A DNA stretch of 64,000 nucleotides. Source: Liolophura sinensis (lineage: Eukaryota > Mollusca > Polyplacophora > Chitonida > Chitonidae). The translations under genes were made by a program, and so were the position numbers. Position 1 is the stretch's first letter. Each line of letters opens with the position of its first letter. This document shows, piece after piece, positions 16,284 to 62,794 of this stretch. The notes under the pieces are model-generated. The model worked only from the letters and a program-made list of their open reading frames with translations. It searched no databases and had not been told where the DNA came from. The stretch spans positions 4,714,501 through 4,778,500 of the forward strand of contig NC_088295.1 in the NCBI RefSeq assembly GCF_032854445.1, read 5' to 3'.

Positions 16284-16403
16284 ATGACAGCGCCGGACTC
16301 AAAGTACGTCCGATTCCGGGCATACTTACTGTCCAAAATCCGCGTGCGTAGTCCACTTGGGCGAGAAATCCTGTCCGAATTCATCGGCACCTTCTTCTTG
16401 GTG
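16284..16403 (+). CDS. Aquaglyceroporin exon 1 (residues 1-40)
   Basis: Starts at the first ATG after an in-frame TGA (16269-16271). It encodes a basic cytosolic N-terminus and the start of TM1 (EFIGTFFLV). The donor is GTG|gtaagt, phase 0. Joined to exon 2, the spacing through TM1 matches other aquaglyceroporins, so no exon appears to be missing. A 9.15-kb intron follows. Confidence 0.9.
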
Positions 16404-18310
16404 GTAAGTATGGTACCTAGCTAACTTTGAGCCGACTTTCGACAGAAACGTTGTGATAGAAACATCTCTTGGAATAGAAGTATTTTGAAAATAATATTCA
16501 AAGGTATTTTAATAACTTAAAAAATAATTCATTTATTTGTTTCTTGTTCCCAGTGTATGAACAAACGATGACTTTTAGTCAGAGTTGGTTTCGGGATCTG
16601 ACTTGCATTGTGGCTTATGGACATTTGACCGTTTTAAGTTGAATCTTAATGCTTATACAATGATTAATGTAAAAGGATATCTATGGCGGACGTAATAACA
16701 ACAAATGTGTTCTAATGTAAGAACATGACAATGCCGAAGCTAAAATTTACACACTAGAAAGGTTTCCTTGCCTGTGTGTATTAGTTAATGTTCTACTTTG
16801 AGAAGACCACCATGCACGCTTTAATCAAACTACACGTCAGGATTCTGTACACTTCCATCCACAGTTCCTGGACAACTATAGTGTTTGATAATATGTTGAA
16901 GGTTTGGCCAGTTAGTTCTCGATACTTCGCTGGATGAAAGATTATGGGTTTATTGATCAGATAAAGGTTTGATTGGTTGCATGTCAGTACTTTCTTAGAA
17001 AAAGGACAATCCGTTTTGACAATAAACTGAAAGGTTGGACAGTCAGTTTTCGATGCTTCCTCGGGTCAAAGAAAATCGGATTTGGATAAAGGTGGTAGTT
17101 TTAGGCAGTTCCTTTAGGGACTGTACGTTTCGCTTTCATCTGTCTCCATTTTATTCCATCCGGTTGACCATGGTGTGTTGTGTCAGGGACATTGAACATC
17201 CCTATTTTATATGAATTTGTACACTTTTGGGTTCTGTTCATCAACGTATAAGCAGTATCAGACAGACGCTCACCCAGCCTATGATCCTCTTATATCATAC
17301 ACTGTGGTAATAGGCATTGTTTGCCTGAGTGTTGAGTGGTGGTTTTATAGAAGCGCTACTTTAATTACTTAACGCTGTTTAATTGGGCCTTCCAGTACTT
17401 GAGGGCTCACTCGTCTGCGGCAGTTTAACATATGTAGGCTATCAGTATAAACCAGAAAACTTATAGTTGTGAACTATTTCTGCGCTCAAACATCTTTACA
17501 GGCCTGTTGGTGACGTAGGAGGCGCTATATGCGATGGATTTATCCATTTTGAAGGAAAGTGATAGAAGTACTTTTACGGATTTATGTCGCACTCTCATTA
17601 TTTTATACTGGTCTGCATGTTACACGAAAATCAATCCAATTCCACTAGAAAGTGACGTGACAGAATATTGTTGAGGAAAGCCAAGAAAGCAATCATGCAG
17701 GGTATATGATTCCTCTGGCTTGATTCTATATCAGGAATTTCTTATTTATCATAGACATACTACCATGTAAATTGATATATTTTTCTCTTCAAGTCGAAGT
17801 GGTCAACAAACTCTTGCATTTTATAAGGCACAGTTTGAGCTACATGACGAATGGGTACGTTTTCTCCTATCACTGGAATGCTGGCAACCGGTAAATACGG
17901 TGGGAATCCCGTCATTTCAATTAGTGAAAAGTTAATTATTTCACATTAAGTTTTATGGTGCTATTAACGCTACTAATATTAACGGAAGAAGTTCAGAATT
18001 TCACTAAAATTTAATTTTAGTGTAATAAAGTACACTGAAATTATTGCACAAAGATTTAGATAAGTGCATGCTTCAAGATAGCATGTTCACATTTTCAACA
18101 TGATTTGGTACAGTTTGTTTCTCATCTGCGTTGTAAGCATTATGTCTATAGGAGTCAATTCACACACAGATGTAACTATTGCTGTTTTCCACTTTATACC
18201 CTTATATCATACCATTTACTTGGACTATTGGTGCAGAAAATGGGCTGTCTTAATTATGATTCAAAATTTTACACCTCGCTGTGTTGCAAAGGTGTCACCA
18301 ATCCTCTGTG

Positions 18311-18348
<38 letters not shown>

Positions 18349-21300
18349 TGTGTGTGTGCGTGTGTGTCTGTTTTGTTTGAGCGAATATACAGCTGTGGTA
18401 TGACGGCAACCTAAAGTTGAATCCAACATGCTTATCAGACAATCTCTACGAGACGAATGTTTACTAATGCTTATTCGAGAAAAAAAGCAACACCGGAAAT
18501 AACATTCTGGTATTAAGAGGGTACTTAATAGAAAGTGATAGTGGAAGTTGCGGTCTTTAATGACTGGGCTGGTTGAAAAGTTGTCTTGTAATAGACCAAA
18601 TGAGGTGAGCATTCAGTTTTGTTTGAGGCACTGACCGTGATCAGAAGATGAAGACAAACATCTGCCCGTAACAGGCGGAATAGCATCCAAATATTGACAG
18701 TTGTTATACACACACTTGATGTGGTTAGTGGATAGTGTGAAGTGAATAAGCGATACAGTGAGAACGCCGTGTTATTACGTGACAATCTGCTGTGAACCGT
18801 CTACTTACTATGGCTTAAACCTGTTACAGGAGATTAAGCGTGTTTCCAATAAGCTTAAACGACAAGGATCAACACAACGGACACGAGACCTTCACACCTC
18901 CGTGCTTAACCCAAGTCTGGCTCTATCACTAGACAAGTAAGCACAAAGCTTCCTAAATCAAGTTCTCGTAACTTTTTCGCAAATCACATCACCTTATGGC
19001 GCAATAGCCTAGACAACGTCTTTAACGAAAAATGTTTGAGAAACATGACTTACGAATTTTTGTTAAAGTGGCCCTGTATGCACAGCAATATCACAATGGC
19101 ATTTTTCTAGAAGCTGACGAGAGATATTAGGTCGGGAGATATTTGAGTACTACTCCATTCCTAAAAATCTGTAAAAAAAAATGTCACTGTATTGCTCGTG
19201 AGATTCAGACTTCTCCGGAAACATGTGATTTCAGCCTAGGTGTACAGTGTAGTGCGATGAATACAGGGCTGTGGTTTACATTATTGAGCAAGTTCACCAA
19301 GGAATCTATAAGTGGTGGAGAAAGGGTGAATGCATTGCTGCAATCTATTCATGGATATTTTCTGTAAATCTCTAGGTGGTCGGGAGACAAAACAGCTATT
19401 TCTGCGCCAGACACAATGGTAATATTTATTCACCTAGCTTTTTTATTTTGAGCGTTATAATCATGTCAGGCCGGGGCGTATTGTGACCGCTGAATACGGT
19501 GATCTAATTAATCCCACCCTGAGAGAACTCTTCTTTGAACTCAAGGTTTGCGCTGTATTTAAAACAAGCACGTGGAGACCTCATGTCGCATTGTCAGATC
19601 CCTCGGACTATATAATGAAGAGTTGTCCTACGTTTTTTTTTTCAACTTCAATCTCTCAAGCGTCACGTGATGACGCAATTTACCGTACTGGTTAATCCTT
19701 ACTGAACTTTTGTCTCTACCAGCCATTCGTTCTTTGTTCTACTTCTGACCACCGTACCTGTAGACAATGTATTGTTACATTTGGCCTCTCTTAACGAAAC
19801 GATTAGAATTCTTAAGATAGAGGTACATGAAGGCTAACTCTATTTCTGTATATGCCTTGAGGGCCGGTCCTGTCGTTGTTCACTCCTCCATACTCTAAGT
19901 GTTAATTTGGTTCGCAGTCCTGACCCATCGCTTTATCACACTGCCGGTATTGATGTAACTATACAATTAAAACGTCTTTGTATATAATTACCATATTAAT
20001 ATATTTATTGGACAAAAAAGAACTATACTTCTTAATTACCAAACATGCACTGATGCGTTTGAAAAGCCATTACTTGGTCCTGATTAGAATTTTGCCTTGG
20101 TATACAATTACACGAAAATGGCGGCGCTGCTGTGTAATTATTCCGTTTGTTCCAAAACCTGCGGATGGTCGTGGGTTTCCCCCGGGCTCTGCCCGGTTTC
20201 CTCCCGCCATAATGCTGGCCGCCGTCGTATAAGTGAAACATTCTTGAGTACGGCGTAAAACACCAATCAAATAAAATGAATAAATTTTTTCCAAACATTG
20301 TATACAGATTTTAAGTAATTATTATGCCATTTGCTCTTATTTAAGTACATCATACCTGAGTCTGTTTCACTGGATTTTTAATCTAACGTCTATGTTACAA
20401 GTACGCATGCCTACTATTGATTAGCATACAAACAATAAACTTTAGTCCTCTGTCTCGCACAACTCTTCAAACACATGAAACTGCTTCTAGATGGACTGAT
20501 TTTCTTTGCATGTAAAATATATGAAACAATATGGATTATGAGAATCTGAAAAGAGAGAATCTCAAGTTTGACTTCACTGGAAGTGGTACCTACTGCAATT
20601 ATATGTGTGTACTATTTGAACTTGGTATAGGCTGTAAACATTATTTTCCATTCTGTGTACCGTATATACCAGCATTTTGGGGCAAGTTAGGGTCAATGCA
20701 GCGTGAAGCATAGTGGTTTATATAAATGTGTACCTACACCATTAAGACTCTGTTTGTATCGCCTATTATGCAACATGTGTTAAAAAAGAATATTATATAT
20801 CACGGCGTACCCCCGTTGCTAGGTAACGATTTCTCTTCCACACAAAAACCAACACTTCTGTGCAGAGGTTGTTTATCGTCCCATCCGCTCAGCTTTGATC
20901 GCGTACTCAAGATACATGTACGCTTAATGACATCCTATACAACCAGCTTCTCAGCCAGTAATCAATCGATTGTTAAGTTTAAACAGTATCGGAAGGTCAC
21001 TGTTTACAGTTTGTTATGCGAGAAGATGTGAGGGTATCTTTACAACGCCCTCTACCTTACTGATAGCATGCGGTCCACTATTCCCCCACTCTTCTGACAG
21101 TGGTATTTCTCTTATCGCTGTGTGGTGGGACATTGACATTATACCGTCACATCTGATCCCCACGCCCATATCAGATAAGATAGGAAAAACTTGAAACAAA
21201 GAATGTGTGGTAAACATTTAGTGACGATGTGTTTTTACATGGATACAGTCGTACACATTTATACACGTAGTATCTTGGACAAGTACAAGAAATGCTGGGT

Positions 21301-24300
21301 ATACACATGCTGAGACATGCTGTCATATATATGTATATCATCTACTCACCTTGAAAGTTGTGTTATAAATCTCTAAGGCTCTTTTTTCTTGGGGGCGGGA
21401 AGGTCTGACAGCAACCTGCGGATGGTTTCGGTTTCCTCCCACCATAATGCTGGCCTTCGACGTATAAGTGAAATATTCTTGAGTACAGCGTAAAACACCA
21501 GTCAAATAAATAAATAAATAAATAAATCTTTTTCTCGGGGCATAAAATTGTGCTGAAAATCTCTAAGGCTGTAGTTTCCGGGTCGTGAAGGTTGTGTTTA
21601 CAGCCTCTAAGGCTCTTGTTCTCGGGTCGTGAAGGTTGTGTTAACGGCCTATAAGATTCTTGTTCTCGGGCCGTCAAGGTTATGTTTACAGCCTCTAAGG
21701 CTCTTGTTCTCGGGCCGTGAAGGTTGTGTTTGCAGCGTCTAAGATTCTTGTTCTCGGGCCGTGAAGATTGTGTTTACAACCTCTAAGGCTCTTGTTCTTG
21801 GGTTGTGAATGTTGTGTTTACAGCCTCTGAGGCTGTTGTTCTCGGTCCGTGAAGTTTATTCTTACAGTCTCTAAGGGTCTTGTTCTCCGGCTATGAAGGT
21901 TGTGCTTACAGAGTTAAGGCTCTTGTTCTCCGGCAATGAAGGTTGTGTCTACAGCCTCTAAGGCTCTTGTGCTCGGGCCGTGAATGTTGTGTTTACAGCC
22001 TCTAAGGCTGTTGTTCTCGGGCCGTAAAGGCTCTATTTACAGCCTCTAAGACTCTTGTTCTCGGTCCGTGAAGTTTATGCTTACAGTCTTTAAGGCTCTT
22101 GTTCTCGGTCCGTGAAGATTGTGTTTACGGCCTCTAAGGCCCTTGTTCTCGGGCCGTGGAGTTTATTCTTACAATCTCTACGGTTCTTGTTCTCCGGTCG
22201 TGAAGGTTGTGTTTACAGCCTGTAAGGTTCTTGTTCTCGGGCCGTGAAGATTGTGTTTGAAATCTCTAATGTCCCCGTTCTCCGGTCGTGAAGGCTGTGT
22301 TTACAACTTCTAAGGCTCTTTTTTGTCAACCGTGAAGATTGTGTTTGAAATCTCTGAGGCTCTTTGTCTCGGGCCGTGAAGTTTATACTTATAATCTCTA
22401 ACTCTTGTTCTAGGGACATAAAATGTGTTTAAAGTTTCTAAGGCTCTTTTTTGTCAACCGCGAAGATTGTGTTTAAAGCATCTAAAGCTTTTGTCTCGGG
22501 CCGTTAAGTTTAAGCTTACAGCCTGTGAGGCTCTTGTTCTCCGGCCGTGAAGTCTGTGTTTACAGCCTCTGAGGCTCTTGTCCTCCGGCCGTGAAGTCTG
22601 TGTTTACAGCCTCTGCGGCTCTTGTTCTCCGGCCGTGAAGGTTGTGTTTACAGCCTCTGAAGCTCTTGTTCTCCGGCCGTGAAGTCTGTGTTTACAGCCT
22701 CTGAGGCTCTTGTTCTCCGGCCGTGAAGGCTGTGTTTACAGCCTCTGAGGCTCTTGTTCTCCGGCCGTGAAGGCTGTGTTTACAACCTCTAAGGTTCTTT
22801 TTTGTCAACCGTGAAGATTGTGTTTGAAATCTCTGAGGCTCTTTGTCTAGGGCCGTGAAGGTTGTGTTTACAGCTTTACAATCTTCACGGCCCGAGAACA
22901 ACTATGAAGACTGTGTTTGAAGGCTTTTGTCTCGGGCCGTGAAGTCTGTGTTTACAGCCTCTGAGGCTCTTGTTCTCGGGCCGTTAAGTTTAAGCTTACA
23001 GCCTGTAAGGCTCTTGTTATCGAGTCGTGATGGTTGTGTTTACAGCCTCTAAGGCTCTTGTTCTTGGGCCGTGAAGATTTTGTTTGAAGTGTCTAAGTCT
23101 CCTGTTCTCGGGTCGTGAAGTTTGTGTTTACAGCCTCTGAGGCTCTTGTTCTCGGGCCGTGAAGTTTAAGCTTACAGCCTGTAAGGCCCTTGTTATCGAG
23201 TCGTGAAGGTTGTGTTTACAGCCTCTAAGGCTCTTGTTCTCGGGCCGTGAAGAATTTGTTTGAAGTGTCTACGTCTCTTCTTCTCTGGTTGTGAAGTTTG
23301 TGTTTATAGCCTCTAAGGCTCTTGTTCTCGGGCAGTGAAATTTGTGTTTACAGCTTGTAAGGCTCTTGTTCTCCGACCGTGAAGATTGTCTTTACAGCGT
23401 CTAAGGTGCTTGTTCTCGGGCAGTGAAGTTTATACCTACAATCTCTTTCTCGTGCCGTGAAACGTGTTTACAGTCTCTAAGGCTCTTTTTCTCAGACCGT
23501 TAAGGCGTGTGTTTGAAGTTTCATGCCCTTGTTCTTCGATGGTAAAGGTTGTGTTTGAAGTCTGTAAGGCTCTTGTTTTTCAACCATGAAGATTGTGTTT
23601 GTAGAATTTGGACGGTCAGTCTAAACTGACAATGGCCTTGCTGCACATCACATACGAAAACTTCTGCTGCATTACAGACGCTGCATTCTCCATGTGAATG
23701 TATTTCAGTCTGGGTTGGCGGCCTCTGCAGATCAAACAGTAGACCTCTTGTCAAGCTGCGCTCACACCACTCGTCGAATGAAAGTAGTGTTAGTTCATGC
23801 GTTAGTTCATGTAGAATTCGACAAATCACATGGTTTGAATGCAGCTTACGAGATAGAATTGTCCTAGTTTCAATACCCCTGTCGCATTCGACCAGTTCAT
23901 ACGACAAATCGCATTCTGGGAAAGTTGAAAAAAAAGTTGAAAAAGGGCAGATGGCTACACTGAAAGTTTAATTACTGCTCTGTTACAAGCTTGAAATGCT
24001 TCATTAAAAGTTAAATAATGAATTGTCATGCTACATACGTAAGCTTATATACGCTTGCCCTACCATCCAGTACTGTGTGTACTGTGGACACATTTCGCGA
24101 GACTCTCAAACAAAGCAAAGGTATCTTATAGTTTATCGTGGTTAAAAGTTAATGCAGGTATATTTGTATTTTGGGATAAAGTCATTAATCATAACATACT
24201 TGTACTAAACTACTGACGTCTGAGAAGGTCATTATTTAGGTCCTGTCCGCGAACGCGGACGTCTCAGCTGGGAACCTCAGTCCGCCACGTGGTCAGCGCA

Positions 24301-27300
24301 AGAACAGCTAATCTCAACCTTTGTTTGAGTAAGAAATTTATCGGGCGTATTTATTAGCAAATATATGACAGGTATAATTGGTGCAATGTGTGAGTGACCT
24401 GGGTGTGCAACCATAGATAAAACAGATGGAGTGTTTTTATACAGGCCTAAGATGCCCACTGACCTGCTGAGTCCATCTATAATCGTGTGTTTTTAACACG
24501 GTGCAAAGAAAACAGCCCCTTTACTTGGTGACCTTTGTGTTCTGTTGCTTTAATTTCTGTACCATTGTCAACCATCTGCAAGATGTATCAGTATTGACAT
24601 CTGAGTAACATTGATAACCATCCACAAAATGCTTTAAACCTGATATTGGTGTACCACCGTCAATCATCCATAAGATAATTCAGTGGTGACATTTGTGTAC
24701 CACCGTCAATCATCCGCAAGATAATCCAGTGCTTTAATTTGTGTACCATCGTTAATCATCCACAAGATAATCCAGAGCTGAAATTTGTGTACCATCGTCA
24801 ATCATCCACAAGATAATGCAGTGTTGACATTTGTGTACCATCGTCAGTCATCCACAAGATAATCCAGTGTTGACTATTGTGTACTATTGTCGATCATCTA
24901 CAAGATAATTCAGAGCTGACATCTGTGAGATGACAAATGACAGAGTACTGTCATTTGTGTACTATTATCGATCATCTACAAAATGACACAGTGTTGACGT
25001 GTTTATCCGGAAAATGCTCTAAACGTAGTACCCATGTCCCACTATCAACTATGAACAAGATGCATGCAAAGGAAAGTCAGTGTTCTGTCGTCAACCATTT
25101 TGTCCTGCCATCGTCCCAATACAAAATGCCTCAAACTAGACCCGTGTTTACCTGAAAAGCCTTAATCCTGCCATTCCATCATCACCATCTCTGTCACAAC
25201 AGATTATAATGAGAGCTGGGGGAAAAACAAATACAATTTTCATAAAACGTACTGATTTCCCTAAAGTGTAATAAATTATAATGCAAGTGTCATCACAATG
25301 AAAAAAGGAAAAAAAGTCAAATAATTCAAATAATTATATTGTGATGACACCTAGATCGATGGTTATACAACCACCCATACCTGATAACATTATAGATTAG
25401 AAACTAGAGAAAACTTTCTGAATCTTATACAGTCTCTCTGCATTTACCTACAACAGAGATATTCACGTGTTATCACGAAGGCTTTGTTTTGGGTGTTCTG
25501 ATTGACATGACTAGTGTACGTACATGCACTCATTTCTATGTTATTTCCTCGCAGACGTTTGCGGTAGCCTCTGGTGCCCAGTATGTGTTGAGCAGGCAGG
25601 AGTTGAGCAGTTTTCTGACGGTGAATTTGGCCGGAGGCGTAGGACTCACGTTCGCCGTGTACTGGTCATGTGGGCCATCAGGTACGTGCAGAGCAGGACT
25701 CACATTCGCCATGTACTTGTCATGCTGACCCTGGCGCACGTACAGAGCATGACTCACATTGGCGGTGTAGTTGTCATTCGGACCCTCAGGTACGTTTAGA
25801 GCGTGACTCACATCCACCGTGTACTGGCCATTTAGATTTGGCGTGTACTGGTCATTTGGACCTTCAGGTATCCATTCGCTGAACTTGTTATTCGGACCCT
25901 TAGGTATGTACAGGGCATGACTCATATTCACCATGCTCTTGTCATTCGGATCCTGAGGTGAGTTCAGAGCATGACTCACATTCGCCATGGATTTGTCATT
26001 CGGATCCTGAGGTAAGTTCAGAGCCTGACTCACATTCGCTGTCACTTGGACCCTCAGACACATACAGAGCATGACTCACGTGCTGCCTCGTGTTCGCAGT
26101 GAGCCTGACACACATTTGTCGTGTACTGATCATTCGGATCCTCAGGTACCCAGTGAGCTTGATTTACATTCGCCCTGTATTGGTTATTTGGACCCTCAGG
26201 TACGAAGTGAGAATGACTCGCGTTCGCTGTGAATTTGTCATTCGAACCCTCGTGAGCTTGAACGGTAATCACGATCATTCGAACTCCCAGGTGTGTACAG
26301 AGCATGAATAAAATTCGCCGTTATCATTCGGACCTTAGGTACTTTCAGAGCAAAGTTCACATTCGTCGTATACTGGTCATTTGGACCCTGGGGTACGTAG
26401 TGAGCATGACTCGCATTCGCTGTGAATTTGTCCTTCTGACCTCAAGTACACGGTGAACATGTACACATTTCTCGACTAATTGCAGACAAAGTAGAACTTT
26501 CAACAAATATATGTGAAAGGCTACATACATGGACTTAGACAGTATTCATTCCTGAACAGCCGTATGGATATGTCACATGAGTGTGTACAAGAACTATCTC
26601 CGCAACTGTGTTGACCTTGAGGTTAAGAATTGATGTTGTAGTTGGTGCTGAGCATTGAACAGGCCGAAATAAGAACATGGCCTGTATGAATGTGATGAGC
26701 TTTAAATGAAGGCTTCAACAGATACGATTTTCACAGAGTAATGAAAAGGCGCACAGGTGAAATGGACAACAGATGCGATGTTTACAAAGTAATGGAAAGG
26801 AGCACAGGTGAAGTGTACAACAGCAATAGGGCTAATTTGCGCAGTTTACAAAAAATATTTTATCGTTACGCAACCTAACCCTGGGGTGATTAAACACATC
26901 AGAAGGTTTCTTTACAAATGTGTAACACGTTATTCTGACCCATTCTTTAAACATTTTGCGGGGGATGTTATCATGCTACAAGGCTATATGAATCAAAGAT
27001 TACACTTGCGAGCAAAACAAATATTTACTTACTTACATTACGGCAGTCATCCAATGGTCACTTTGTGCATCATCAGCGCCCAAGATGGCAGCCGTTGTTA
27101 ACTCTTTTCTGAATTTTACTACCTTCACAATGATATTTTATCCACATGTATGCTTAATGAAGTTAATATCTTATGATGTCTCCTTTGATGCTGTAGGCGC
27201 CGTGCTGAATCCGTCCGTCACGTTAGCTTTCTGCATAGAGGGGAGAATACCCTGGTGGAAATACCCGTTCTACGCCATAACTCAGGTCTGCGCAGCCTTT

Positions 27301-29934
27301 GTCGCCGCTGCCATACAGTTCGGGGTTTACCATGGTAAGTATACTCATACACCAGTGTAACGTACCAACCGTTCTACGTTCTGATGTCCGGGCTACACTC
27401 ACACTTTTCTGATCGAGTTCTTAGGGTTTTTTTCCAGGTTAACTGATCTATGGTAGGTTGAAGATAAATAAATCTGAAACTGTACAGGTGTTTAGTGTAA
27501 TTATGTAGTGTCTTTGCTGTTTGTGCTCACACTCTTGAACAGTCTCATTTTATGGAAATAAAGGATAACAAACGCCAAACAGAAGGACTGCGACCGACTT
27601 TTGTGATGAATGTTACCTGTTAAGGTGCGTTATAAATCCGAAAGGACGTGTTATCAGTTATCTGTTCATATAGACAATACACTATTCAGGGGATATGGCT
27701 AGACTTTTACGGGAACAGTTGTTTAATAAACGCTGCGAAATCTTTTTCTAGACATTATTTTCCTGACATATATAGATGTTGCCCACCTTATGTTACATAA
27801 TTATCCTCCTCGCCTCAAGTTCTGTCTTCGTGGCTTTCAGAATTTATTAGAATATGGTTTTAGACAGTCTTTATGATGCGTTGTGACTTCAACACTGCGT
27901 TAGGTATCAATATCTACAAACCTTACCTCCATGTTTTCCACTCCGGCTCTATGTGGGAAGGTCTGCCAGCAACCTGCGGATGGTCGTGGGTTTTCCCCGG
28001 GTTCTGCCCTGTTTCCCCCCACCATAATGCTGGCTGCCGTCGTACAAGTGAAATATTCTTGAGTACGGCATAAAACACCAATCAAATAAATAAATACCTC
28101 CGTGTTTTTACTACACTGTTTGAACTCGCAGATGCCATCAACCACTATGACGGCGGTGTTCGGCAGACGTACGGACCCCAGGCCACGGCCGGAATCTTCT
28201 CCACATTCCCCCAGGATTACGTCTCCACCACAAACTGCTTCTTTGACCAGGTAACGCCGTCAGACGCTGCCGTCTGCCATGGCGGTTTATGAGAACAGAC
28301 GGTTTTTAAATCATTTTTAAAGATTGTAAATACTGTTGCCCTGATAGTTACTTGTAAGTGACACTGTCTTATTACGGTATCTACATTAATGTGGCCCAAT
28401 GCGTTTGTTACGGTACCGGTAGTTACGTAGTTACTCAGCCTTACTATATACACCGCCTTATTACGGTAGTCACGTAAATGTGGCCCTACTGTACACACCG
28501 TCTTATTACGGTAGTCACGTAAGTGTGGCCCTACTGTAGACACCGTCTTATTACGGTACCGGTAGTTACGTAAATATGGGCCTACTGTAAACACCGTCTT
28601 ATTACGGTACCGGTAGTTACGTAAATGTGGCCCAACTGTAGACACCGTCTTATTACTGTACCGTTAGTTACGTAAATGTGGCACTGCTGTGAATACTGCC
28701 TTATTACAGTAGTTACGTATACATGGGCCTACTGTAGACACTGTTTTATTACGATAGTTAAGTAAATATGGCCTTATTGTAGACACCGTTTTATTACGGT
28801 AGTTACATAAATGTTGCCCTACTGTAGGCGCCGTTTTATTGAGCTAGTTACGTAAATGTGGTCTTACTGTCTCCCCCTCGCTACGTCCGGTTTCTTCTCA
28901 CCATAGTGCTGGCCGTCGCCGTATAAGTGAAACACTCTAGGGTACGGCATAAAACATCAATCAAGTAAATAAATAAATAAAATACATACTTTACACAATA
29001 TGTTGTAGTGAAGTGCACATGGTGCTACTACATGTATAAGTGTGCGAAACGAGACCAATAATCTTCCACAAAATGTACGAAAAAGTTCTCACTGAGAACC
29101 ACTTACTAGACGTCCCCTTTTCCACAGGTATTTGGAACATTCATTTTGGCTGGGTGTATCCTGGCGATGACAGACAAGCGACATATGTTTCCTTCAAAAG
29201 GTCTGTTACCCATTGCTTTGGGCCTGATCGTCTTTGCGATTGGCACATCTTTCGCACTCAACTGTGGTTACGCCATCAACCCAGCCCGGGATTTCGGACC
29301 TCGCCTCTTCACGGTCGTGGCGGGATGGGGGATAGAACCAATCAGGTAAGTAAGGTAGTCGAAGTCGATGGTCATTAGAGTCCGGTCATATGCTATGAGG
29401 CAACCTATACTCAATGTATTAGATTGGGGATAGTCAGTGCGTAGGCATGGGTAACATATGAATTTCTCAGCAACGAGTATTATAGCTATTGTTAACAGGA
29501 AATAATGCCAAAATAAACTGATGTTATGCGACTCTTGCACATCTATACCAAAATTTTTTTTTGTTAAAAACAATGTAACAAGTGCAAGTGTTTCTGATGA
29601 TGAATATAATGAATTTTCCCCACTTAATTGCAGTTACCGGAATTATAACTGGTTCTGGGTGCCGATCGTGGGTCCCCTAGTTGGCGCCACTGTCGCCTGT
29701 TTTGTGTACAACATCTTCATCCAAGCCCACTGGCCACCGGAAGATGAGGATGAGAATGATCCTGTGGACGACGTGGAACAGGGCAAGTCCATGAATAGGC
29801 TCAGCACGATCTCCACCGTTGATAACGGAGCGGCTCTGGAGGGCTTGGACAATAAGGGTTTCTCTGAAGGTAAGGAAATCATCTTGAAAGACGATCTGCA
29901 CCAGTTTGCCCAGCGGTCGGCCCGTGAAGCTTAA
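16284..29934 (+). CDS. Aquaglyceroporin (MIP family channel), complete six-exon gene
   Basis: Membrane channel expected to pass water, glycerol and other small neutral solutes. Joining six exons gives 340 aa with phases 0, 1, 1, 0, 2 and GT-AG at every junction. Visible: conserved REILSEFIGTFFL at residues 27-39 in TM1; first half-helix motif NPS (87-89) in place of NPA; TM3 about 104-126; a long extracellular loop C (about 128-165) ending NCFFDQ, as in glycerol-permeable members; second motif NPARDFGPR (219-227). Asp223 after the NPA Arg marks the aquaglyceroporin (GlpF/AQP3/7/9/10) branch rather than water-only aquaporins. TM6 is about 248-270, followed by a roughly 70-residue acidic cytosolic tail (EDEDEND). 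The ATG is the first after an in-frame TGA at 16269. Length is slightly above the usual 290-320 aa because of the tail. Which AQP3/7/9/10-like paralogue this is cannot be decided here. Confidence 0.93.
18301..18371. repeat. (TG)n microsatellite
   Basis: Interrupted TG tract with occasional C substitutions inside intron 1. The Val-Cys-rich frames across it are artefacts. Confidence 0.95.
20158..20286 (+). mobile_element. 5'-truncated family-1 SINE in aquaglyceroporin intron 1
   Basis: Begins at cctgcggatggtcgtgggtt and ends at caccaatcaaataaaatgaa. It is close to the consensus seen at 51062. Flanks ttgttccaaaac and ttttttccaaac may be the target-site duplication. Confidence 0.88.
20287..21359 (+). 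other. Unannotated part of intron 1
   Basis: No element or exon recognised. Confidence 0.5.
21360..23600. repeat. 44-bp minisatellite interrupted by a SINE and an inverted unit
   Basis: Unit is ctctaaggctcttgttctcg, ggccgtgaaggttgtgttta, cagc, in roughly 45-48 diverged copies. The array begins before the SINE at 21395-21526, which split one unit. At 22878-22901 a piece of the unit sits in reverse orientation. Subtypes differ at ctcggg/ctccgg and at a Tttttgtcaacc variant. Confidence 0.92.
21395..21526 (+). mobile_element. Family-1 SINE inserted inside a minisatellite unit
   Basis: Runs from ggaaggtctgacagcaacct to the (AAAT)n tail. Flanks tcttttttcttgggg (21380-21394) and tctttttctcgggg (21527-21540) look like a diverged target-site duplication and match the array unit itself, so the insertion is younger than the array. 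Confidence 0.85.
23601..24519 (+). other. Unannotated part of intron 1
   Basis: Contains a small perfect hairpin gtccgcg-aa-cgcggac at 24246-24261. No exon recognised. Confidence 0.5.
24520..25150. repeat. 46-bp minisatellite in intron 1
   Basis: About twelve diverged copies of a unit with tttgtgtaccatcgtcaatc, atccacaagataatccagt and gttgac. The gtaccaccgt landmark is spaced 46 bp (24651, 24697). It decays towards 25150. Confidence 0.82.
25287..25350. repeat. Inverted repeat with 13-bp perfect arms
   Basis: gtgtcatcacaat (25287-25299) pairs with attgtgatgacac (25338-25350) across an A-rich 38-nt loop in intron 1. It may be a tiny MITE relic; pairing does not extend outward. Confidence 0.6.
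25555..25681 (+). CDS. Aquaglyceroporin exon 2 (TM1 end to TM2)
   Basis: The acceptor is ctcgcag|ACG and the donor is CAG|gtacgt at 25682, phase 1. It encodes TFAVASGAQYVLSR, then TM2 (FLTVNLAGGVGLTFAVYW). The last 39 nt, with the first 15 intronic nt, form unit 1 of the 54-bp minisatellite that fills the start of intron 2. Read-through into the intron reaches TGA at 25726-25728 after 15 codons. Confidence 0.9.
25643..26460 (+). repeat. 54-bp minisatellite founded on the exon 2 / intron 2 junction
   Basis: GACTCAC recurs at 25643, 25697, 25751 and 25805 (period exactly 54), then at 25973 and 26027, with more diverged units to about 26460. There are about 14-15 units in all. Unit 1 is 39 nt of coding exon plus gtacgtgcagagcag of the intron. 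Copies of the splice donor recur as gtacgt (25790), gtatgt (25904), gtgagt (25958), gtaagt (26012) and gtacgt (26393). The coding part matches conserved aquaporin TM2, so the exon is the likely ancestor and the intronic units its duplicates. Confidence 0.85.
26461..27196 (+). other. Rest of aquaglyceroporin intron 2
   Basis: No repeat or exon recognised apart from two short related stretches near 26750-26820 containing aatggaaaggagcacaggtg. Confidence 0.5.
27197..27334 (+). CDS. Aquaglyceroporin exon 3 (first pore half-helix and TM3)
   Basis: The acceptor is gctgtag|GC and the donor is CATG|gtaagt, phase 1 in and out. It encodes GAVLNPSVTLAF, where the first pore motif reads NPS, then WWKYPFYAITQ and TM3. 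Confidence 0.93.
27938..28094 (+). mobile_element. 5'-truncated family-1 SINE next to the exon 4 acceptor
   Basis: Runs from ccactccggctctatgtggg to a TAAA tail, flanked by 14-bp direct repeats tacctccatgtttt (27924-27937) and tacctccgtgtttt (28095-28108), one mismatch. Only 37 bp separate its tail from exon 4. Confidence 0.88.
28132..28250 (+). CDS. Aquaglyceroporin exon 4 (extracellular loop C)
   Basis: The acceptor is ctcgcag|AT and the donor is CAG|gtaacg, phase 0. It encodes AINHYDGG, then the family-typical TAGIFSTFP and NCFFDQ. A 5'-truncated SINE ends only about 40 bp upstream of this acceptor. Confidence 0.93.
28355..28867 (+). repeat. 45-50-bp minisatellite in aquaglyceroporin intron 4
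   Basis: About eleven copies of cgtaaatgtggccctactgt, agacaccgtcttattacggt, agtta. Units with an extra accggt are 50 bp. It is cut short by the SINE remnant starting near 28868. Confidence 0.85.
28868..28983 (+). mobile_element. Degraded family-1 SINE 3' end in intron 4
   Basis: Matches the family segments ccggtttcttctcaccatag, tgctggccgtcgccgtataa, gtacggcataaaacatcaat and a TAAA tail. Confidence 0.78.
29128..29345 (+). CDS. Aquaglyceroporin exon 5 (TM4, TM5, NPA box)
   Basis: The acceptor is tccacag|GTA and the donor is ATCAG|gtaagt, phase 2. It encodes TM4 (VFGTFILAGCILAMTD), TM5 (LPIALGLIVFAIG) and the diagnostic second motif GYAINPARDFGPR followed by AGWG. This is the strongest single piece of family evidence in the gene. 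Confidence 0.96.
29634..29934 (+). CDS. Aquaglyceroporin exon 6 (TM6 and acidic C-terminal tail)
   Basis: The acceptor is attgcag|TTAC. It encodes YRNYNWFWVPIVGPLVGA (TM6), then a tail with the acidic run EDEDENDPVDD and Ser/Thr-rich segments; the stop is TAA at 29932. An AATAAA overlaps the stop codon (29933-29938). Confidence 0.94.
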
Positions 29935-42929: not shown

Positions 42930-44295
42930 ACACCGTCTCTGTCACACCCCTGTTCTGTCACAACCACAGTCCCATCCCTCTTCTGTCACAACCACAGCTC
43001 ACCCCTCTTCTGTCACAACCACAGCCCACCCCTCTTCTGTCACAACCACAGCTCACCCTTCTTCTGTCACAACCACAGCCCACCCCTCTTCTGTCACAAC
43101 CACAGCCCACCCCTCTTCTGTCACAACCACAGCCCACCCCTCTTCTGTCACAACCACAGCCCCACCCCTCTTCTGTCACAACCACAGCCCACCCCTCTTC
43201 TGTCACAACCACAGCCCACCCCTCTTCTGTCACAACCACAGCTCACCCCTCTTCTGTCACAACCACAGCCCACCCCTCTTCTGTCACAACCACAGCCCAC
43301 CCCTCTTCTGTCACAACCACAGCCCACCCCTCTTCTGTCACAACCACAGCCCACCCTTCTTCTGTCACAACCACAGCTCACCCCTCTTCTGTCACAACCA
43401 CAGCCCACCCCTCTTCTGTCACAACCACAGCCCACCCCTCTTCTGTCACAACCACAGCCCACCCCTCTTCTGTCACAACCACAACCCCACCCCTCTTCTG
43501 TCACAACCACAGCTCACCCCTCTTCTGTCACAACCACAGCTCACCCCTCTTCTGTCACAACCACAGCCCACCCCTCTTCTGTCACAACCACAGCCCCACC
43601 CCTCTTCTGTCACAACCACAGTCCCATCCCTCTTCTGTCACAACCACAGCTCACCCCTCTTCTGTCACAACCACAGCCCACCCCTCTTCTGTCACAACCA
43701 CAGCCCACCCCTCTTCTGTCACAACCACAGCTCACCCCTCTTCTGTCACAACCACAGCCCACCCCTCTTCTGTCACAACCACAGCCCCACCCCTCCTCTG
43801 TCACAACCACAGTCCCATCCCTCTTCTGTCACAACCACAGCTCACCCCTCTTCTGTCACAACCACAGCCCACCCCTCTTCTGTCACAACCACAGCCCACC
43901 CCTCTTCTGTCACAACCACAGCCCACCCTTCTTCTGTCACAACCACAGCCCCACCCCTCTTCTGTGACAACCACAGCCCACCCCTCTTCTGTGACAACCA
44001 CAGCCCACCCCTCTTCTGTCACAACCACAGCTCACCCCTCTTCTGTCACAACCACAGCCCACCCCTCTTCTGTCACAACCACAGCCCACCCCTCTTCTGT
44101 CACAACCACAGCCCACCCCTCTTCTGTCACAACCACAGCTCACCCCTCTTCTGTCACAACCACAGCTTACCCCTCTTCTGTCACAACCACAGCTCACCCC
44201 TCTTCTGTCACAACCACAGCCCCACCCCTCTTCTGTCACAACCACAGCCCCACCCCTCTTCTGTGACAACCACAGCTCACCCCTCTTCTGTCACA
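42930..44295. repeat. 27-bp C-rich minisatellite, about 50 copies
   Basis: The unit is cccacccctcttctgtcaca-accacag, alternating cagccc/cagctc. Occasional 28-bp units (an added C) shift the frame. There are no stops in most frames on either strand, so + frames of 361 and 469 codons (HPSSVTTTA repeats) and several minus frames appear; none is a credible protein. Confidence 0.95.
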
Positions 44296-52794: not shown

Positions 52795-55700
52795 ATGTAA
52801 AGCAGATCACCCACATTCACCCACCTCACCATAAAGCTACCCTCATGTAATGTAAACCACCCACGTTATGCTAACCCCATTAAAACCCCTATGTCACTCT
52901 AATGTAATGCAAACGACCCACGTTATCCTAACGCCATCAAAACCCCTATATCACCCTCCTGTAATGTAGACCACCCACATTATGCTAACCCCATCCAGAC
53001 CCGTATATCACCATAATGTTATGTAACCCCCCCACGTTATGCTAACCTCCATCAAGACCCTTATGTCACCCTGATGTAATGTACACCACCGACGTTATGC
53101 TAATCTCCATCCAGACCCTTATGTCACCCTAATCTAATGTAAACCACCTCAAGTCATGCAAATCTCCATTAAGACCCTTATGTCACCCTAATCTAATGTA
53201 AACCAACCACGTTATGTTAATCTCCATCAAGACCCCTATGTCACTCTAATGTAATGTAAACCACCCACGTTATGCTAACCTCCATCAAGACCCTTATGTC
53301 ACCCTAATCTAATGTAAACCACCCACGTTATGCTAATCTCCATTCAGACCCCTATGTCACCCTAATCTCATGTAAACCACCCACGCTATGCTAATCTCCA
53401 TTCAGACCCCTATGTCACTCTAATGTAACGTAAACCACCCACGCTATGCTAATCTCCATTCAGACCCCTATGTCACTCTAATGTAATGTAAACCACCCAC
53501 GTTATGCTAATCTCCATTCAAACCACTATGTCACTCTAATGTAATGTAAACCACTCACGTTATCCTAACCTCCAGTAAGACCCCTATGTCACTCTAATGT
53601 AATGTAAACCACCCACGTTATGCTAACCTCCATCAAGACCCTTATGTCACTCTGATGTAATGTAAACCACCCACGTTATGCTAACCTCCAGTAAGACCCC
53701 TATGTCACTATAATGTAATGTAAACCACCCACGTTATGCTAACCTCCATCAAGACCCTTATGTCACCCTAATCTCATGTAAACCACCCACGTTATGCTAA
53801 TCTCCATTCAGACCCCTATGTCACCCTAACGCAATGTAAACCACCCACGTTATGCTAACCTCCATCAAGACCCTTATGTCACCCTAATCTAATGTAAACC
53901 ACCCACGTTATGCTAACCTCCATCAAAACCCCTATGTCACTGTAATGTAATGTAAATCAACCACGTTATGCTAACCTCCATCAAGACCCTTATGTCACCC
54001 TAATCTAATGTAAACCACCCACGTTATGCTAATCTCCATTCAGACCCCTATGTCACTTTAATGTAATGTAAACCACCCACGTTATGCTAACCTCCATCAA
54101 GACCCTTATGTCACCCTAATCTAATGTAAACCACCCACGTTATGCTAACCTCCATCAAGACCCCTATGTCACTGTAATGTAATGTAAATCACCCACGTTA
54201 TGCTAACCTCCATCAAGACCCTTATGTCACCCTAATCTAATTTAAACCACCCACGTTATGCTAATCTCCATTCAGAGCCCTATGTCACTCTAATGTAATG
54301 TAAACCACCCACGTTATGCTAACCTCCATCAAGACCCTTATGTCACCCTAATCTAATGTAAACCAACCACGTTATGCTAATCTCCATCAAGACCCTTATG
54401 TCACTCTAATGTAATGTAAACCACCCACGTTATGCTAACCTCCATCAAGACCCTTATGTCACCCTAATCTAATGTAAACCACCCACGTTATGCTAATCTC
54501 CATCAAGACCCCTATGTCACTCTAATGTAATGTAAACCACCCACGTTATGCCAACCTCCATCAAGACCCTTATGTCACCCTAAGCTAATGTAAACCAACC
54601 ACGTTCTGCTAATCTCCATCAAGACCCTTATGTCACTCTAATGCAACGTAAACCACCCACGCTATGCTAATCTCCATTCAGACCCCTATGTCACCCTAAT
54701 GTAATGTAAACCACCCACGTTATGCTAACCTCCAGTAAGACCCCTATGTCACTCTAATGTAATGTAAACCACCCACGTTATGCTAACCTCCATCAAGACC
54801 CTTATGTCACCCTAATCTAATATAAACCAACCATGTTATGCTAATCTCCATCAAGACCCCTATGTCACTCTAATGTAATGCAAACCACCCACGTTATGCT
54901 AACCTCCATCAAGACCCTTATGTCACCCTAATCTAATGTAAACCACCCACGTTAGGCTAACCTCCAGTAAGACCCCTATGTCACTCTAATGTAATGTAAA
55001 CCACCCACGTTATGCTAACCTCCATCAAGACCCTTATGTCACCCTAATCTAATGTAAACCACCCACGTTATGCTAATCTCCAGTAAGACCCCTATGTCAC
55101 CCTAACGCAATGTAAACCACCCACGTTATGCTAACCTCCATCAAGACCCTTATGTCACCCTAATCTAATGTAAACCACCCACGTTATGCTAACCTCCATC
55201 AATACCCCTATGTCACTGTAATGTAATGTAAATCACCCACGTTATGCTAACCTCCATCAAGACCCTTATGTCAGCCTAATCTAATGTAAACCACCCACGT
55301 TATGCTAATCTCCATTCAGACCCCTATGTCACTCTAATGTAATGTAAACCACCCACGTTATGCTAACCTCCATCAAGACCCTTATGTCACTCTGATGTAA
55401 TGTAAACCACCCACGTTATGCTCATCTCCATTCAGACCCTTATGTCACCTTAATCTAATGTAAACCACCCACGTTATGCTCATCTCCATTCAGACCCCTA
55501 TGTCACTCTAATGTAATGTAAACCACCCACGTTATGCTAATCTCCATTCAGACCCCTATGTCACTCTAATGTAATGTAAACCACCCACGTTATGCTAACC
55601 TCCATCAAGACCCTTATGTCACTCTAATGTAATGTAAACCACCCACGTTATGCTAATCTCCATTCAGACCCCTATGTCACTCTAATGTAATGTAAACCAC

Positions 55701-56050
55701 CCACGTTATGCTAACCTCCATCAAGACCCTTATGTCACTCTAATGTAATGTAAACCACCCACGTTATGCTAATCTCCATTCAGACCCCTATGTCACCCTA
55801 ATCTAATGTAAACCACCCACGTTATGCTAACCTCCATTAAGACCCTTATGTCACCCTAATGTAAAGTAAACCACCCACGTTATGCTAACCTCCATTAAGA
55901 CCCTTATGTCACTCTAATGTAAAGTAAACAACCCACGTTATGCTAGCCTCCAGTAAGACCCCTATGTCACCCTAACGCAATGTAAACCACCCACGTCGTG
56001 CTAACCCTCATAGATCCCTGTGTTACCCTTTTGTAATGTAAACCACAATA
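52795..56050. repeat. 58-bp satellite-like array, about 55 copies, two interspersed subtypes
   Basis: The unit is cctccatcaagacccttatg-tcaccctaatctaatgtaaa-ccacccacgttatgctaa. Subtype A has ..caagacccttatgtcaccctaatcta..; subtype B has ..tcagacccctatgtcactctaatgta... They often alternate, giving 116-bp and longer higher-order blocks; a third variant has cagtaagaccc. Units at both ends are more diverged, as expected for unequal exchange. Confidence 0.95.
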
Positions 56051-59000: not shown

Positions 59001-60063
59001 TTCTTGGTTGGATGATGATGGTTCACCACGGGGGACACAGAAATGGTTTCATCTCCTTAAGCGGATCGCGCGTGACGTTAACTCTAATGAGGTCAGTCCA
59101 GAGCTGTCATTCGTAACGGCCACTCTGTCAACAGCCAATAGTCGCTCAGTCACTAACAGCCCGTAACAGCCATCCGAGGCGGAAAACAAAACTGACCAAC
59201 TCGCAGTATGGGGCCCGTATCGGTTCCTCAGACGGTCAAAATTTACAACTCCATAGCCCAAACTGCAACCACTAAATGTTCCTTAACCCCTGGCTTCATG
59301 GTCTAGATTGATTTTTAATACAAGTACAGCTATCGTGATTAGCCCTAGCGTATTAGGAAGGAGCCTTAGGGCTTACAGGCGAAACCCTTCAATAGTGCTC
59401 CGTATGAACGGGTTCGCACAGCCCAGTAGTTACAACGTACACAGCCGGAGTGTGATTGATTTCCACTGAGACAATTGCTGCTGCGCTGTTTGTAAAGCTT
59501 TGTCACAGAATTACACGACTCTCCAATAGTTAGATAATAACATCACACGCCTCGGGCTTTGGTTTCAAGAGTTGAATCCAGGGGGGCTTGAGTGGCAGCA
59601 ACAACGTGAAGGCAGTTGAAGATGTAAGACAGTCGTGGAAAGTGAAAGCCAGAACTTATCTTTAGCGACAGCTTGGGGGTGAGAGGTGGGTCGCTATAAC
59701 CTGTGGATAACGGTGTTATAATGATCTCCATGTCATAAGCCAATCCGCAATATCGGTGCCATCTCCAAAACCTAATCCACGTCTTAGGGATTTACTTAAC
59801 TTACCGGTACATCATCTCCCTGCAAATCACAGCCTCAATCTTTTAACTATAGTTATAATAAAAAAAATGAGGAACAAAAGAGTTGAAAATTATACTGTAT
59901 AAATGTACCAATCCATGCATTAAAGTATTTCATCTATGGCTGTATTCATTACAGATCTGGGGGTCGAATCCAGGAAGCAATTTTCGACTCCCAAGTTGTG
60001 GCAGACTTAACTTCACACTTGTTAGGTGTACCCAATTTCAATTCCTCAATATCCTAAAGTTAA
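56051..60063 (+). other. Unannotated part of the GPCR intron
   Basis: Contains a T-rich low-complexity tract at about 56419-56490. No exon, RNA gene or transposon recognised. Confidence 0.5.
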
Positions 60064-61450
60064 ACTTCCTCCATTATCTCCAGTCCTGGATTATCATGCA
60101 TACAACTGGATACCAGCCCGTCCCTCTTAACGACAGCGCTGTACCCATACTAATATCACTCCATTATCTTCAGTCCTGGATGATCATGCATACAACTGGA
60201 TACCAGCCCGTCCCTCTTAACGACAGCGCTGTACCCATACTAATATCACTCCATTATCTTCAGTCCTGGATGATCATGCATACAACTGGATACCAGCCCG
60301 TCCCTCTTAACGACAGCGCTGTACCCATACTAATATCACTCCATTATCTTCAGTCCTGGATGATCATGCATACAACTGGATACCAGCCCGTCCCTCTTAA
60401 CGACAGCGCTGTACCCATACTAATATCACTCCATTATCTTCAGTCCTGGATGATCATGCATACAACTGGATACCAGCCCGTCCCTCTTAACGACAGCGCT
60501 GTACCCATACTAATATCACTCCATTATCTTCAGTCCTGGATGATCATGCATACAAATGGATACCAGCCCGTCCCTCTTAACGACAGCGCTGTACTCATAC
60601 TAATATCACTCCATTATCTTCAGTCCTGGATTATCATGCATACAAATGGATACCAGCCCGTCCCTCTTAACGACAGCGCTGTACTCATACTAATATCACT
60701 CCATTATCTTCAGTCCTGGATGATCATACATACAACTGGATACCAGCCCGTCCCTCTTAACGACAGCGCTGTACCCATATTAATATCACTCCATTATCTT
60801 CAGTCCTGGATGATCATGCATACAACTGGATACCAGCCCGTCCCTCTTAACGACAGCGCTGTACCCATACTGATATCACTCCATTATCCTCAGTCCTGGA
60901 TTATCATGCATACAACTGGATACCAGCCCGTCCCTCTTAACGACAGCGCTGTACCCATACTGATATCACTCCATTATCCTCAGTCCTGGATTATCATGCA
61001 TACAAATGGATACCAGCCCGTCCCTCTTAAGGACAGCGCTGTACTCATACTAATATCACTCCATTATCCTAAGTACTGGATTATCATGCATACAACTGGA
61101 TACCAGCCCGTCCCTCTTAACGACAGCGCTGTACTCATACTGATATCACTCCATTATCCTCAGTCCTGGATTATCATGCATACAAATGGATACCAGCCCG
61201 TCCCTCTTAACGACAGCGCTGTACCCATACTGATATCACTCCATTATCCTCAGTCCCGGATTATCATGCATACAAATGGATACCAGCCCGTCCCTCTTAA
61301 CGACAGCGCTGTACCCATACTAATATCACTCCATTATCTTCAGTCCTGTATTATCATGCATACAACTGGATACCAGCCCGTCCCTCTTAAGGACAGCGCT
61401 GTACCCATACTAATATCACTCCATTATCCTCAGTCCTGGATTATCATGTT
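60064..61450. repeat. 90-bp tandem repeat, about 15.5 copies, carrying a 554-codon open frame
   Basis: The unit starts ctccattatcttcagtcctg and includes catacaactggataccagcc, cgtccctcttaacgacagcg and ctgtacccatactaatatca. The period (30 codons) keeps one + frame open (59883-61547). Differences between units are few and mostly change the residue (Gln-preceding Leu/Pro, Met/Ile, Thr/Asn, Pro/Leu, Asn/Lys), not what purifying selection would leave. It lies inside the GPCR intron, so I call it a repeat. Confidence 0.93.
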
Positions 61451-62794
61451 GATATTATCATATCATTATCAGTTGCAAACCCGTAACTCCAATTCGAATA
61501 GAGCAGTCACGAGAGTTACAATTCGAAAAAAAAGATCAAAGGTGTGACCAAATGTATGTTCAAATGTATGAACACATGTATGATCACTTGTACTGCTTTA
61601 ATTGGTGTCGAACATCGCAGACAAAATATTTCGCATACCTGTATCTGTATACGATACAACCATTCCTGTTTAATATCTTTAATAAGACAAGCACTTTATC
61701 GCCAACACTAGGGCACCTGATGAAGGAAGTAATGTACATGTTATCGTCTTGTGCATGAACAATTAGTGACATAGTTGGAATGGAAGTGTGGCCCAGGTTG
61801 GCGGGTTCGTCTGGCAAAACGCCTCCACGATATCGGTATGTTATGACGATTATCATGACACGTGTCTATTCCTTAATCATACACATTTCTAGAATCGTTT
61901 TATCTACAAATATCTCATGGGTTGTAAACGGTTCAAGGGTTTATTATGACAGCAAACAGGATTATAGGCAGAGAAAACCAGCCATAAATCATTAAAACTC
62001 CCCTCCCCCGCCCTTGTCACCAGATACCAGATAAATCCCCTGATTTAAGGATGCATCCAAACTCACGAAGTCTGGACTCGTGAGGGATTTGTAAAATCTG
62101 AACTGTAACACTGAGAAATACTGAAATGATGACGATATCCAATTGTTTCGCAAAACTCTCATCAAATCACACTGACTGACATACTCTGTATTCACAGAAG
62201 AAATATTTTTGCAGCTACACAGCTACTGCAACCTGCAGCAAAAAATACAAAACCCTACCAAGAATAGCTCATTTCTGTTGCCCAAAGCCGGCTCGTGCGA
62301 TGTGCCAAAAAGTGATAACCCCACTACTTGCATTATAATAGTATCATTGTATTGAAATCAGTCTGACACTAAATGAGTTATTGGCCAAAATGATCAACTC
62401 TTACAGGTGTATTATTGGTGTCAACGTACATTAGCGTCATCGTTGATTTGTCATTCAGTGAATATCGAGTCATCGATCCCACCAACACAAACATTTTCGT
62501 GAGAATAAAACATATTATTTCCAGATCAACCTTTAATAGTTGTTCTCGGTGTTGTACGCTTGGTAAGAAGATAAAAATGAATAGGTAAAGCAATGTAGCA
62601 GAAGAATAAAGCGATGAACAGGTTTTAAGCATATAAACCCCAATAATCCGATGTGCGAGACAAGAAATTGTATTCCACCAGATAATTGATTTTTATGCTA
62701 AATGTGAAGACATTAGGCGACATGAATAGCGCATTAACTACTGATTACTACATAAACAGGCTGGCAATTTAATTCGATCTGTTTACCTACTCCC
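61451..62794 (+). other. Unannotated part of the GPCR intron
   Basis: Nothing recognised. Confidence 0.5.

Follow-up and report, generated by a model that had tools for sequence, protein, structure and literature searches.

The DNA considered here is a stretch of 64,000 nucleotides from the chiton Liolophura sinensis (contig NC_088295.1, positions 4,714,501 to 4,778,500, forward strand), which we call the window, and all positions below are counted from its first letter. The window carries a predicted aquaglyceroporin gene (16284-29934, + strand), in whose second intron lies a minisatellite made of diverged copies of the junction between exon 2 and intron 2, the 5' splice site (donor) included. 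Then, did the exon give rise to the repeat or the repeat to the exon, and could the multiplied splice sites have acquired a function?

In the predicted spliced model the gene is intact, with six exons and a product of 340 amino acids:

16284-16403, + strand: exon 1, from the start codon to the donor GTAAGT (motif scan, sequence, spliced frame)
25555-25681, + strand: exon 2, with 41 bases at its 3' end (25641-25681) forming the exonic share of repeat unit 1 (spliced frame; gapless alignment to AQP3 and AQP10)
27197-27334, + strand: exon 3, preceded by the acceptor TGTAG (spliced frame)
28132-28250, + strand: exon 4 (spliced frame)
29128-29345, + strand: exon 5 (spliced frame)
29634-29934, + strand: exon 6, including the stop codon (spliced frame)

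The joined exons give 1023 nt, and the sole stop in the spliced reading frame is the terminal one. The product matches the MIP domain PF00230 in Pfam with 160.2 bits against a cut-off of 25 (E 8.4e-47, profile positions 8-222 of 222). When the PDB sequences were searched, nearly the full length of the protein was aligned with AQP10 (E 1.6e-74), AQP3 (2.7e-70) and AQP7 (6.2e-59), which outrank GlpF and the water-selective aquaporins as solved relatives. The second pore motif reads NPARD, with the Asp after the second NPA that we take to be a mark of aquaglyceroporins. Judged by its predicted sequence, the host protein is an aquaglyceroporin of the MIP family. The aquaporin-10 alignment is gapless from residue 12 into exon 5 and crosses the junction of exons 2 and 3 without gain or loss, and the peptide of these two exons aligns gaplessly with AQP3 across 87 residues. 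Since the full 340-residue frame, the complete MIP domain and the gapless aquaporin-10 alignment all result from splicing at 25682, this donor gives the expected protein. In addition, the first pore motif, in exon 3 (27197-27334), reads LNPSV; its NPS stands in place of the canonical NPA, a difference from the vertebrate aquaglyceroporins. Intron 3 holds a sequence like a short interspersed element (27930-28110, with an AT-rich tail at its end), which we take to resemble a short element of molluscs.

The array and the sites related to it are listed below, where the donor scores come from a donor matrix and the duplex energies are for pairing with the U1 5' end:

25641-26449, + strand: 54-bp minisatellite, head-to-tail, about 16 diverged units, the unit comprising 41 exonic and 13 intronic bases (Tandem Repeats Finder, TRF; self-identity; wrap-around alignment)
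25682-25687, + strand: authentic donor of intron 2, phase 1, CAG/GTACGT (score 9.48, -8.8 kcal/mol; paralogues L003 and L005 carry an intron at the corresponding place)
25726-25728, + strand: TGA, the first in-frame stop for an extended exon 2 (sequence)
25790-25795, + strand: intact donor copy CAG/GTACGT in unit 3, its nine bases equal to the authentic donor (score 9.48, -8.0 kcal/mol)
25904-25909, + strand: donor copy TAG/GTATGT (score 8.22)
25958-25963, + strand: donor copy GAG/GTGAGT, above the authentic donor (score 11.38, -10.8 kcal/mol)
26012-26017, + strand: donor copy GAG/GTAAGT, the strongest in the array (score 11.69, -10.7 kcal/mol)
26291-26296, + strand: donor copy CAG/GTGTGT (score 9.50)
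26307-26312, + strand: AATAAA hexamer within an array unit (sequence)

An initial annotation of this DNA had described a 54-bp array at the end of exon 2, and its existence is borne out. TRF reports two blocks, 25641-26039 (period 54 bp, 7.3 copies, 68% matches) and 26098-26251 (2.9 copies, 73% matches), and within 25643-26460 a lag of 54 gives a self-identity of 0.526, compared with a maximum of 0.330 at any lag of 10-299 in 1000 mononucleotide shuffles. A wrap-around alignment yields 16 rows, the last of which reaches 26449. The array was said to begin at 25643 inside exon 2; it does begin within the exon, but two bases earlier, at 25641. Unit 1 (25641-25694) includes the end of the exon and the donor at 25682, as had been claimed. 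The spacing, described as exactly 54 bp, is so locally (8 of the 16 rows in a second alignment) but not overall, the other rows being 34-60 bp long. Intron 2 is 1515 bp long, and the array takes up about half of it (768 bp).

The 14 intronic units share a mean identity of 71% with the exon unit, and the most similar adjacent pair is 89% identical; the top pair overall is non-adjacent (units 26213 and 26406, 95% over shared columns). Both the mean and the best adjacent value suggest that the array is old and has turned over little in recent times. Other arrays of the window are better preserved, with 93-99% matches at 13992, 30592, 42945 and 60069 (TRF). Decayed arrays are expected to change length only seldom, and frequent length polymorphism of this one is unlikely, given how far its units have diverged from that of the exon (71% mean identity). 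On the opposite strand, an open frame of 179 amino acids (25536-26075, - strand) spans exon 2 and the array and has zero Pfam matches; it probably arises since the 54-bp unit is without a stop in that frame.

The order of events can be read from several features of the locus. In two paralogues of the same genome, L003 and L005, a phase-1 intron interrupts the glycine codon that intron 2 interrupts in the target; in a third, L004, the acceptor matches, and exon 2 was not found within that locus. Neither the intron of L003 (about 205 bp) nor that of L005 (about 1.1 kb) has lag 54 among its four best lags. It should be noted that the shortness of the L003 intron lets its best lag, 69, reach through noise a self-identity (0.393) as high as that of lag 54 over the whole target intron (0.389). 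When the array is read in the frame of the exon, peptides such as AGLTFAMYLSC, LTFAVYWSFGPSG-like ones and LTFAMDLSFGS recur, interrupted by stops; that is, the intronic units are stop-broken copies of the peptide of the second transmembrane segment (TM2), and the first of them keep the reading frame of the exon. The exon and unit 2 have AGGACTC, whereas most units from unit 3 on have ATGACTC and therefore TGA in the exon frame. When the array was compared as DNA with the entire genome, in a search that skips very common words, three matches came up, all inside the array itself.

Because the protein is gapless across the junction, the intron of the same phase in the paralogues is free of the repeat, the copies are TM2-like and in frame, and the array matches only at its own locus, the sequences identify the coding exon end with its donor as the seed of the array, and the exon as the older of the two. 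The exon-seeded origin put forward in the initial annotation therefore stands; an array older than the exon or unrelated to it, looked for among paralogues of the same genome only, was not found. A dispersed satellite or mobile repeat was considered and ruled out, the three matches of that genome search, with very common words skipped, being confined to the array. Gain of the intron itself through tandem duplication was likewise ruled out, as L003 and L005 share its position and phase without the repeat.

With the exon end, its donor was also copied, and GT is present in 11 of the 14 intronic units, in agreement with the earlier claim that later units carry donor copies. Four intronic copies (25790, 26291, 25958 and 26012) reach or exceed the authentic score, and three of these four form a stronger U1 duplex than the authentic donor, the exception being 25790. 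As had been stated, GTGAGT at 25958 and GTAAGT at 26012 surpass the authentic GTACGT, and they do so in both score and duplex energy. The rest of the intron (26461-27196) contains no donor of at least the authentic score, while 14 such donors occur on the + strand in the remaining 63 kb of the stretch. This enrichment follows from the copying, and alone it is no sign of function. The use of a downstream donor would lead into the TGA at 25726, which is confirmed to be in frame, and would truncate the channel after TM2, as the initial annotation had foreseen.

We consider it likely that the array is an essentially neutral multiplication of the exon-intron junction, without a dedicated role. A tandem duplication would have captured the exon-intron boundary with the adjoining 41 bases of exon 2 and 13 of intron 2, and with them the 5' splice site, and repeated slippage or unequal exchange may then have extended the unit across the first half of the intron. 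Selection would have continued to act on the exon copy, which encodes TM2 of the channel, and the intronic copies would have drifted, gathering stops and indels, with some donors lost and a few improved. Splicing would still occur mainly at the exon-proximal donor 25682, because it ends an exon of normal size (127 nt), compared with 235, 403 and 457 nt for the donors at 25790, 25958 and 26012, respectively. At most, some leakage to the donor copies may take place, producing an extended exon 2 that runs into the TGA at 25726. Such transcripts would probably be degraded by nonsense-mediated decay, or else yield a channel truncated after TM2 and non-functional.

The tests for selection on the donor copies disagree. 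In pairwise comparisons among intronic units, the identity is 0.631 in the donor block and 0.696 over all columns, and the conservation of the block is matched or beaten by 51 of 54 circular shifts. Competition for or sequestration of U1, the tuning of channel output by array length and a polymorphism in that length, as proposed in the initial annotation, are unsupported. However, several figures weigh against a neutral history. The identity of the donor block to the exon is 0.785, compared with 0.712 for the whole unit (7th of 54 circular shifts); independent decay predicts that GT should persist in 7.1 of the 14 intronic units rather than the 11 observed (the partial unit 26071-26104 is left out of this count); and 4 of the 12 scorable copies reach the score of the exon donor, where a simulation of random mutation gives 1.4 (P 0.005-0.009; units 26213 and 26406, with a gapped or partial donor block, and the partial unit 26071-26104 are left out). 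The excess in donor strength is only marginal, because two of the four strong copies sit in sister units 89% alike: with either sister dropped, P is 0.042-0.067 for strong donors and 0.038-0.085 for the mean score across the variants run, and this remaining lean points the same way. In the variants to which three lost units were added, strong donors have P 0.049-0.067 and the retention of GT has P about 0.19, and the GT dinucleotide ranks 12th and 9th among the 54 circular shifts. We therefore see no clear selection in these tests, although they lean weakly toward it.

In a decoy switch, the copies would compete for U1 and divert part of the pre-mRNA to the stop-bearing exon 2 as a poison extension, so that the content of the array would set the channel output. 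The four intronic copies at or above the authentic donor, with none elsewhere in the intron and 14 in the other 63 kb, the stop met by the extended exon at 25726 and the simulated excess in donor strength, marginal once the sisters are collapsed, are consistent with such a switch; however, the donor block is not conserved between units above the rest, and the array is old and irregular, which makes the switch unlikely. It seems somewhat less probable still that the copies are maintained as a U1-binding decoy array which sends a share of the pre-mRNA into the extended, stop-bearing exon 2, an unproductive-splicing rheostat derived from the exon's own splice site.

In telescripting, U1 binds without splicing and protects introns from premature cleavage, and the copies could in principle shield intron 2 in this way at hexamers such as AATAAA at 26307. 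Strong U1 matches do lie upstream of this hexamer and of ATTAAA at 26889, but the AATAAA sits inside an array unit and arose together with the array, and an intron of 1.5 kb, with one U1 site already provided by the authentic donor, scarcely needs many more; we regard such a shield as very improbable. Recursive or intron-in-intron splicing, with units removed stepwise, appears a shade more doubtful than that. An acceptor-like CAG does abut the donor in the units, which read ..GGACCCTCAG/GTACGT, and pyrimidines make up a fraction of 0.50-0.69 at 11 unit junctions, but the five authentic acceptors of the gene lie at 0.625-0.81 and most unit tracts are weaker; moreover, 54 nt would make a very short intron, and a 1.5-kb intron has no need of stepwise removal. 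The least credible alternative is that an older or dispersed minisatellite was there first and that the exon grew into it or was captured by it. Minisatellites cover 25.9% of the window, which would favour it, and against it stand the gapless conservation of the protein through the junction, the same intron in the paralogues and the lack of array matches elsewhere in the genome in the search that skips very common words.

By its architecture, the array can be classed as an exon-intron-boundary minisatellite of the kind already known from the human gene CBS. The 31-bp variable number tandem repeat of CBS is written c.1444_1467+7(16_21), with 16-21 repeats, and by this notation its unit likewise lies across a 5' splice site, with 24 coding and 7 intronic bases (PMC2630376). 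The CBS units are invariably 31 bp long with single substitutions, and their number is polymorphic between people (PMC2630376). The aquaglyceroporin array differs in having units of 34-60 bp with 71% mean identity to the exon. A 2001 paper by Lievers et al., to judge by its title alone, reportedly linked the CBS repeat to reduced CBS activity.

Tandem duplication of AGGT segments can lead to intron gain, and fission-yeast genes are described that hold several 24-bp copies in tandem, spanned by introns (PMC4974935). There the duplication creates a new intron, whereas here the intron predates the repeat, as L003 and L005 indicate. In dogs, the copy number of an intronic tandem repeat in LHX3 intron 5 alters splicing; the repeat there, however, is 7 bp long in an intron of 75 bp, acts via minimal intron size and does not copy the donor (PMC3223203). 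In the earthworm metallothionein gene, introns hold minisatellites of about 180 bp, which are not described as splice-site copies in the accessible portion of the source (PMC12783039). Our literature search, whose coverage excluded most subscription papers, turned up no invertebrate case of the CBS type.

On the present evidence, which supports the exon-first origin and leaves the proposed function unsupported, the locus is a tidy example of the birth of a minisatellite of this type at an exon edge. It is a clear natural case in which the 5' splice site of a coding exon has been multiplied, some copies being stronger, and the gene still reads intact. The array therefore lends itself to asking how the spliceosome selects one of many near-identical donors and how genes withstand a duplication of this sort. 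Should the copies turn out to be used, they would amount to repeat-driven control of a channel gene.

The frequency of such arrangements was estimated from 75 genic loci (266,115 bases) with sugar transporter, P450, kinase and aquaporin matches, in which a TRF repeat with a period of 15-120 bp was flagged if it overlapped a matched coding stretch by at least 15 bp. The target locus was detected, as a positive control. One of the 75 loci was flagged, L039, with 2.1 copies of 18 bp, a rough rate since the sampled loci partly overlap and include long single-exon matches. The L039 repeat lies beyond a GTAAGT donor, in a part of the profile match that runs past the exon end, and thus seems not to span a junction.

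The window (1-64000) is rich in minisatellites, their cover of 25.9% (TRF, periods 15-160) comparing with 2.7% in the 75 sampled loci (periods 15-120). The aquaglyceroporin gene itself has further minisatellites in intron 1 (24640-24927, 46 bp) and intron 4 (28438-28870, 45 bp), neither of which touches an exon (TRF). Two very large minisatellites are located at 42945-44295 (27 bp, 50 copies, 95% matches) and 52839-56046 (58 bp, 55 copies, 88% matches). In addition, a repeat of 90 bp, a multiple of three, lies at 60069-61448 (15.3 copies, 97% matches) within an open frame of 558 amino acids (59871-61547, + strand).
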